DNA of 29,687 bases, from the IMG/VR virus record IMGVR_UViG_3300042868_000984, positions 1 to 29,687 of that record; one strand, written 5' to 3'. Every line of letters starts with the position of its first letter. The first letter of the stretch is position 1. The DNA comes from a virus. The notes beneath the pieces are model-generated. The model ran no database searches. It worked only from the letters and a program-made list of their open reading frames with translations, and was not told the DNA's origin. Below, one piece after another: positions 14,184-15,393 of the stretch. The position numbers were made by a program, and so were the translations under genes.

Positions 14184-14471
14184 TTAATTTCCAATCACAA
14201 CGTGCCAGTGAGGGCCAGTAGCAAATCTTGATGGGTTTTTCACCTCATCGCGTGCCTCAATAATTTTATAACCAGCATTTTTAATGCTAGAAATGTATTC
14301 CTTAAATGTCACACCAGGTATTGGAGCAATATCAACTGCTCCTTTCGTGCGAGCATGATATGACCTTGGATTCTTTTTCGACAACGGATCATTCGGCCCA
14401 CGGTAGCCAGATGTTATCCTTGCATTAGGAAACAGTTCACCAATCACAGCAGGGCCATCAGCGAAAGCCAC
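14184..14471 (-). CDS. Small M15-type peptidase, virion-associated (95 aa)
   Basis: The sequence has the features of a minimal Peptidase M15 domain: ITSGYRGP (19-26), SYHARTKGAVDI (37-48) with the zinc ligands His39 and Asp47, and the C-terminal GPHWHVV with the last histidines. Such domains cut D-Ala-containing or cross-link peptide bonds in peptidoglycan. It lies between two ejection protein genes and far from the lysis genes, so it probably helps local wall opening during DNA entry. The start is GTG at 14471, preceded by a 19-base hairpin and then a perfect AAGGAGGT; a GTG at 14447 is an alternative. Overlaps the upstream gene by 14 bases. Confidence 0.65.
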   Translation of the reverse strand: MAFADGPAVIGELFPNARITSGYRGPNDPLSKKNPRSYHARTKGAVDIAPIPGVTFKEYISSIKNAGYKIIEARDEVKNPSRFATGPHWHVVIGN

Positions 14472-15393
14472 CAGACGGAGCGCCCGTCTGACCTCCTTTG
14501 GGCTTTCTCCAGCTATCTGGGCTTCCAGTTACTGGCCCACCTACATATTCTTGACCGTTTACAATATCGCCCACCTTTAAGTCAGCAGGGATGGCAGTGA
14601 CATTACTGAAGACACGAGGCTTACCCGAAGGTGCAGCCTGACCGCCACCTTCCGGCGTACCGTAACGCGCAAGATAGTCCTGAAGCGTGCCAGTATATAA
14701 CTCACCATCTGGAGTTTTTGCACCAGTTAAAAGAATTTGGCCCGCCTTATAAGCAATGTTACCAAGCAGTTCGCGTCCCTTGGCGCTATATGGGTCAATC
14801 CCAGCACCACGCATTGCGGCAGCGGCATCACCAAAGCCAGTCATCTTATTGGCTGCGTCAGGGTCAACAGCGCGAACCTGAAGATCAATAATACCTTGAG
14901 CCAAGCGTGGGTCGGCATTGGGATTGCCAACCATTGTAGCCAGGTCACGCAACTGCTTTTCTAAAACTGTGTCACCACTTTCTTTAGCAGCATCAGCGCG
15001 GGTATTAAGTTCTGAAACTGCGTTTTGAACATTGACTACCTCATTTGCATCTGGAGAAAGTCCGTAATATGCTTTGCGTGCAGTTTCGAGAAAGAAATTT
15101 CTTCGACCTTCGTCGAGACCTTTCCAATATGTTTGGATGGCATTAACATCGTCAGGTAGCTCTTGAATAGCTAAGTTACGCTGCTCAATCGTTGCTCCTG
15201 GTCCAAGAAGCGTTTTAAAGATAATGGCTTTCTTTGTAGCCTTATCAATTTCTGCCTGCACCTTTTCACGCTGCGCCTGCGCCTGTAAGCGCTGCGCCTC
15301 GACCTGCTGTTGCTGCTGGCCTAGTTGGACGGCTTTAAAAAACGTTTCTCCAGGAGATGGCGTTTTCAGAGTATAATCATAAGGTTGTACCAT
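14458..15393 (-). CDS. DNA-ejection protein, Gln-rich coiled coil (311 aa)
   Basis: GAGG precedes the ATG. The N-terminal 60 residues carry a Gln-rich coiled coil (LGQQQQQVEAQRLQAQAQRE) with Lys/Glu heptads. A mainly helical middle follows, then a Pro/Gly-rich C-terminus (GGGQAAPSGKPR; GGQTGAPSGGFR). This layout and its place between the 208-aa and 1065-aa ejection genes fit the P22 gp7/gp20/gp16 block of proteins injected with the DNA. The exact P22 counterpart cannot be assigned by eye. Its last codons also contain the regulatory hairpin of the following gene. Confidence 0.6.
   Translation of the reverse strand: MVQPYDYTLKTPSPGETFFKAVQLGQQQQQVEAQRLQAQAQREKVQAEIDKATKKAIIFKTLLGPGATIEQRNLAIQELPDDVNAIQTYWKGLDEGRRNFFLETARKAYYGLSPDANEVVNVQNAVSELNTRADAAKESGDTVLEKQLRDLATMVGNPNADPRLAQGIIDLQVRAVDPDAANKMTGFGDAAAAMRGAGIDPYSAKGRELLGNIAYKAGQILLTGAKTPDGELYTGTLQDYLARYGTPEGGGQAAPSGKPRVFSNVTAIPADLKVGDIVNGQEYVGGPVTGSPDSWRKPKGGQTGAPSGGFR
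14469..14498 (-). promoter_or_regulatory. Shine-Dalgarno, bridging hairpin and GTG start of the M15 gene
   Basis: On the minus strand AAGGAGGT (14498-14491) is followed at once by a perfect 7-bp hairpin (CAGACGG / CCGTCTG, 14490-14472, loop of five) and then directly by the GTG start (14471-14469). Folded, the hairpin would bring the Shine-Dalgarno next to the start codon; unfolded, the gap of 19 bases is too long. Phage T4 gene 38 has a comparable arrangement. No other start lies within normal reach of this site. Confidence 0.5.

Follow-up and report, generated by a model that had tools for sequence, protein, structure and literature searches.

Programmed +1 ribosomal frameshifting at a UUU_Y site, stimulated by an internal Shine-Dalgarno (SD) sequence and a hairpin that lie behind the ribosome, very probably joins a P22 gp20-like ejection protein of phages to exchangeable peptidoglycan hydrolases of M15-like and SLT types. 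This reading rests on sequence comparison, in which the element, its RNA pairing and the +1 relation of the enzyme are conserved, start codons are not conserved, and natural in-frame fusions of the two proteins occur. The element was studied in the window, that is, the whole stretch of 29,687 nt of the IMG/VR virus record IMGVR_UViG_3300042868_000984, and by comparison it is common to more than 100 phage sequences.

In the window, the element lies at the end of a 311-amino-acid ORF (Table 1); the final codons of this ORF contain the element and specify a Gly/Ser/Pro linker (GGQTGAPSGGFR). This ORF spans the SD, the hairpin and a GTG that had been proposed as the start of the peptidase gene, and the peptidase frame is +1 relative to it. 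The SD, the perfect 7-bp hairpin and the GTG adjoin on the minus strand just as the preliminary description had reported. The predicted frameshift product is 402 amino acids long (310 + 92). Folded by itself, the hairpin has a free energy of -10.3 kcal/mol. Perfect 7-bp hairpins with loops of 3-8 nt are found at 16 of 59,374 window positions. A covariance model of the element matched the window at this site only (E 1.6e-7), a score that is partly by construction because the window sequence was included in the model. The fold of 81 nt of the window gave a z of -0.41, and folding strength alone is a poor guide. An Rfam scan of the element returned nothing at the gathering score. The hairpin in the window is more than a chance occurrence.

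Table 1. Features of the junction between the ejection protein and the peptidase in the window.
Feature	Position	Strand	Basis
Upstream zero-frame ORF, 311 aa, ejection protein in the P22 gp20 position	15393-14458	minus	gene order, gp7-like gene upstream
Internal Shine-Dalgarno (SD) AAGGAGGT	14498-14491	minus	
Hairpin, 7-bp stem CAGACGG (14490-14484)/CCGTCTG (14478-14472), loop GCGCT (14483-14479)	14490-14472	minus	
5-nt spacer GTGGC from stem to shift site, including the GTG of the preliminary description (14471-14469)	14471-14467	minus	
Proposed +1 shift site TTT_C	14466-14463	minus	
Zero-frame stop TGA, 2 codons past TTT	14460-14458	minus	
+1-frame extension, M15-like zinc peptidase domain FADGPAV...GPHWHVVIGN, stop TAA 14186-14184	14465-14184	minus	

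Thirty-one IMG/VR loci were gathered by their peptidase protein alone, with no requirement for TTTY, and all 31 retain the SD, the stem and the downstream TTTCGCT. A pattern search that required TTTY and left the middle stem pair free gave at least 119 IMG/VR stretches, where this pair is A-T, T-A, G-C, C-G or T-G. Since loci chosen by a pattern could bias the result, four sets were chosen by protein similarity, which yielded 175 distinct junctions; these sequences have common ancestry, and the junction counts are not independent events. At 146 of the 175 junctions, the SD, the hairpin and TTTY are present and the domain follows in +1, and at one further junction (L311) the covariance model found the element further upstream, bringing the +1 cases to 147. 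An element whose domain is in -1 occurs at none of the 175. Of the remaining junctions, 8 have the element and a domain in frame 0, 15 lack the element and have the two parts fused in frame, one (L342) has the enzyme as a separate gene that starts at its own ATG, and four have an apparent -1 heptamer, C_CCT_TTC, instead of the element. The four -1 cases count against the +1 reading. In L311 (1643-2249), about 110 residues of other sequence stand ahead of the M15_3 domain in the +1 extension, suggesting that the element can carry a two-part tail. In L281, L295, L298 and L315, the enzyme domain is in the -1 frame at the tandem-slip-like heptamer C_CCT_TTC (around position 2000), with GGAGG upstream and a hairpin that is weak or absent. 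There, -1 frameshifting may have replaced the +1 shift in this gene pair.

Neither the 31 loci nor the 146 elements show a conserved start codon for the downstream ORF. The GTG that was proposed as the peptidase start is GTG in 14 of the 31 relatives, GTA in 16 and ATA in one. The fallback GTG at 14447 is GTA in two of them (L015 and L020), which have no peptidase-frame start codon near the junction or in the early domain; in L020, such codons occur only far upstream, within the upstream gene. Despite this loss of start codons, peptidase-frame coding in the relatives is conserved from the TTC onward, and the upstream ORF ends at the identical place in all 31 loci. In 30 of the 146 elements, there is no ATG, GTG or TTG in the domain frame from about 20 codons before the site to 10 after it. 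No close relative was found that keeps the peptidase and lacks both stem and SD; it is the start codon that goes missing. Initiation at the window GTG is therefore very unlikely by this comparison, as the start codon is not conserved, but TTTY about 5 nt past the hairpin with the domain in +1 is.

A free-standing peptidase whose GTG is bridged to the SD by the hairpin, in the style of T4 genes 38 and 25, has the precedent of T4 (PMC3014915) and the adjoining SD, hairpin and GTG of the window on its side. It is nevertheless highly improbable, given the replacement of the GTG in 17 of 31 close relatives, the 30 elements without any nearby start codon and the existence of in-frame fusions. Bridged initiation would also need neither the +1 relation (147 junctions compared with none in -1) nor a close upstream stop. 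More improbable yet is termination at the TGA followed by reinitiation at the overlapping ATG or at GTG 14447. A TGATG or TAATG overlap is found in the window and many window-type relatives, and GTG 14447 is kept in 29 of the 31, but the overlapping ATG opens a wrong frame, in which the ORF is over after 4 codons, and this ATG is absent in Pseudanabaena phage Pam1 and most other elements. The change of GTG 14447 to GTA in L015 and L020 also counts against reinitiation, which leaves the hairpin, the spacing and TTTY unexplained.

The SD and hairpin are, on the comparative evidence, a conserved RNA element in which pairing is kept while the stem sequence varies. The stems differ wholly between groups (CAGACGG/CCGTCTG; CGGTAGTG/CACTACCG; CCGGCG/CGCCGG; GCGGGGT/GCCCCGC). 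Two classes of hairpin were scored apart, as a single fixed register mixes them and understates pairing. In the class with a 7-bp stem and a 5-nt loop (n = 32), 96.0% of cells are paired, compared with 62.6% in shuffles, and the covariation score is 0.754 compared with 0.172. The corresponding values for the class with an 8-bp stem and a 4-nt loop (n = 21) are 98.2% against 71.6% and 0.888 against 0.348. In both classes, the pairing and covariation signal was lost when the register was slid. When only the SD and TTTY served as anchors of the alignment, pairing extended over all 7 positions in 50 of 64 distinct stems. Tetraloops are GNRA in 30 of 35 cases and UNCG in 4. GGAGG, which was not a search requirement, stands just 5' of 121 of 123 hairpins. 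Across 376 kb of phage stretches, the covariance model gave one match per stretch, at the junction, and no other strong match. The preliminary description had looked to homologues for compensatory stem changes and constant placement, and indeed the stem covaries and the distance is constant. Its proposal that the hairpin and SD matter at the mRNA level was borne out, the pairing of this RNA element being kept by compensatory change.

A hop of the ribosome over the hairpin, from one GGT to the GGT beyond, as in T4 gene 60 bypassing, is as improbable as reinitiation. The hairpin is indeed flanked by GGT or GGC on both sides in the window and in many of its relatives. However, such a hop is in frame and gives no entry to the +1 frame, the second GGN is absent in L015 and others (where the spacer is ATCCC or similar), and zero-frame coding through the hairpin is open in all. 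The least probable alternative is a role at the DNA level, as a recombination site for domain swapping or a sequence kept just for its encoded linker peptide: domains are swapped behind the element and the GGAGGTCAGACGG form recurs in many phages, but the stem sequence is free yet paired, GNRA and UNCG loops predominate, the encoded residues differ, and such a role would not fix the SD, the spacing, TTTY and the +1 offset. A recombination or linker role could coexist with frameshifting.

The proposed shift site is TTTC in 141 of the 146 elements and TTTT in 5; TTTY was demanded when these 146 were collected, and the 31 loci gathered without it agree. Alternatives without TTTY were inspected among the junctions, and these either agree or were recorded as exceptions. 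Between the stem and TTT there are 5 nt in most elements, and between GGAGG and TTT 25 nt in 108 of 132. A zero-frame stop follows 1-5 codons past TTT in 138 of the 146. In the zero frame, the A site mostly holds CGC, CAA or CCC and only seldom a stop, and the shift would therefore not usually be caused by a stop codon. A sense codon in the A site, without an evident cause for the ribosome to wait, counts against the +1 reading. Transcriptional slippage was set aside, as the site is only TTT or TTTT with no long run.

In the eight frame-0 junctions (L216, L220, L222, L227, L296, L307, L326 and L356), the +1 frame stops after 2-10 codons, within 4 in seven of them. L049 is a ninth frame-0 case, with a +1 stop after one codon. 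This inverted layout would still yield a long and a short product, the shift giving the short one. The background rate of a stop within 3 codons is 27%, and L296, L307 and L326 have a common coding sequence in which the +1 stop is incidental. The frame-0 stops are therefore supporting and not decisive. These cases reveal that the element can exist where the enzyme needs no shift, which counts against the +1 reading.

Several kinds of tail follow the element in the +1 frame: window-type M15-like domains, type B domains, Pfam M15_3 (PF08291), Pfam SLT (PF01464) and others without a family. Across 28 sequences, the SYH, AVD and HWH positions of the M15 motif SxH...AxD...HxH are invariant or nearly so. 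A Pfam search of the window domain gave no match, and comparison with PHROG gave a weak match to endolysin (E 0.0038). The structure model of the domain has a pLDDT of 94.7, and its best matches by VIA-align, all weak, were zinc DD-peptidase 1lbu (Z 5.9), VldE 9flk (Z 5.9) and the Hedgehog N domain (about 4.5). Foldseek with the same model found nothing below E 0.001 and no M15 protein, an absence that is not evidence. The motif and the weak fold matches suggest that the window domain is an M15-like peptidase. In profile comparison, the window type matched type C weakly and type B matched type C well. Among the phage records searched, the M15_3-type tail is nearest to gut microvirus peptidases, with about 34-43% identity (H3-H16), hinting at an exchange of this tail between very different phages. 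A further tail family (TNNPGALRVPGS...), without a Pfam match, occurs once in the +1 frame and once in frame 0 (L146 and L049). In Caulobacter phage SR18, a related SLT domain lies within one long ORF.

A profile search for gp20 homology of the upstream protein gave no significant match, and a search of phage records with it gave no match. The gene order and the depositors' annotation of VSN-002 and Pam1 support a P22 gp20-like protein. In the window, the neighbouring genes are a gp7-like gene upstream and a 1069-amino-acid ORF downstream, and from these neighbours the hydrolase would act on the cell wall during DNA entry. In Sphingopyxis phage VSN-002, the upstream protein and the enzyme form one ORF without the element, and the covariance model found no match in this in-frame fusion. 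The element with an M15_3-like domain also occurs in two Sphingopyxis genomes (L368, Sphingopyxis sp. H073; L369, S. bauzanensis), where it is probably carried by prophages, as these are bacterial genomes and that of S. bauzanensis is an 851-kb contig. In the element of phage Pam1 (L033, ON014753), the middle stem pair is G-C and the shift site is TTTT. The annotation gives its enzyme, Pam1_15, only 49 amino acids, starting at an internal ATG. The conserved domain comprises 102 amino acids (L033 3934-4279) and starts in the +1 frame of Pam1_14 directly past the element, with no start codon at the junction.

By established decoding rules, UUU_C lets tRNA-Phe (anticodon GAA) slip from UUU to UUC. 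We infer the slip itself, and the parts that the SD and hairpin would take in it, as follows. Ribosomes on the ejection-protein gene would traverse the SD AAGGAGGT and the hairpin and arrive with UUU in the P site. The base of the stem would then lie 5 nt upstream, in the mRNA exit region. The hairpin would refold behind the ribosome, reducing the effective spacing between the SD and UUU to about 6 nt. Probably together with SD:anti-SD pairing, it would crowd the exit side of the mRNA and drive tRNA-Phe forward from UUU to UUC. Shifted ribosomes would make the 402-amino-acid protein with its C-terminal M15-like peptidase, and unshifted ribosomes would terminate 2 codons on, giving the 311-amino-acid protein. 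The phage would make a mixture of two forms of the ejection protein, only one of which ends in a wall-cutting tail. The enzyme domain would then be made only where the upstream ejection gene is translated, a point on which the preliminary description appears to have been right.

Each part of this mechanism has a precedent. In release factor RF2 (prfB), an SD stimulates a +1 slip (PMC5009743). As in RF2, an internal SD lies upstream of the +1 site, the P-site tRNA would move one base forward, and the product would be fused (PMC5009743). In the RF2 signal, which RF2 itself regulates, a bare SD stands near CUU and the A site holds UGA, whereas the present element has a hairpin between the SD and the shift site, UUU_Y and mostly a sense A-site codon. 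The Listeria phages PSA, A118 and A500 likewise have structural proteins with a +1 C-terminal extension (PMC5009743), but they use CCC proline codons and a 3' pseudoknot or stop, have no 5' hairpin, and do not add an enzyme to the protein. In T4 gene 38, a hairpin cuts the SD spacing from 22 to 5 nt (PMC3014915). The likeness to this gene drawn in the preliminary description holds for the geometry, as the hairpin would shorten the effective SD spacing as in T4 genes 38 and 25 (PMC3014915), and fails for initiation, which takes place at AUG in these T4 genes, whereas the start codon proposed here is not conserved. In yeast, a hairpin 5' of the shift site stimulated +1 frameshifting, and it influenced -1 shifting less the farther it lay from the site (PMC3639245). 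This hairpin, the refolding 5' hairpin of the SARS coronavirus, resembles the present one in that a close 5' hairpin stimulates +1 shifting and stem pairing is needed (PMC3639245); that case was a synthetic +1 test in yeast without an SD, and the natural role of the hairpin is damping of -1 shifting. In T4 gene 60 bypassing, too, recoding is helped by an SD-like sequence and by a stem loop on the 5' side, close to the mRNA exit channel (PMC5009743), but here there is no gap. By analogy, the element would combine the effects of T4 gene 38, RF2 and 5' hairpins. No description of the SD-hairpin-UUU_Y layout was found in the open-access literature searched. To our knowledge, the signals for frameshifting in bacteria depend on a structure 3' of the site, on a codon that is rare or a stop, or on a bare SD.

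It is rather likely that the element is a widespread phage cassette, in which the SD and hairpin would push an efficient +1 slip on UUU_Y and neither a rare or stop codon nor a 3' structure would be needed, and that it serves as a portable socket by which the ejection protein is fitted with exchangeable wall-degrading enzymes. If this is true, the conserved 5' hairpin that separates the SD from the shift site would be the natural equivalent of the +1 effect known so far from synthetic tests of refolding hairpins, an effect that would become testable in Escherichia coli with a 40-nt insert. It would also account for enzyme ORFs that are start-less or truncated in phage annotations, such as Pam1_15. 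Finally, it would show how phages can equip just a fraction of their ejection proteins with a hydrolase, one of several interchangeable kinds.
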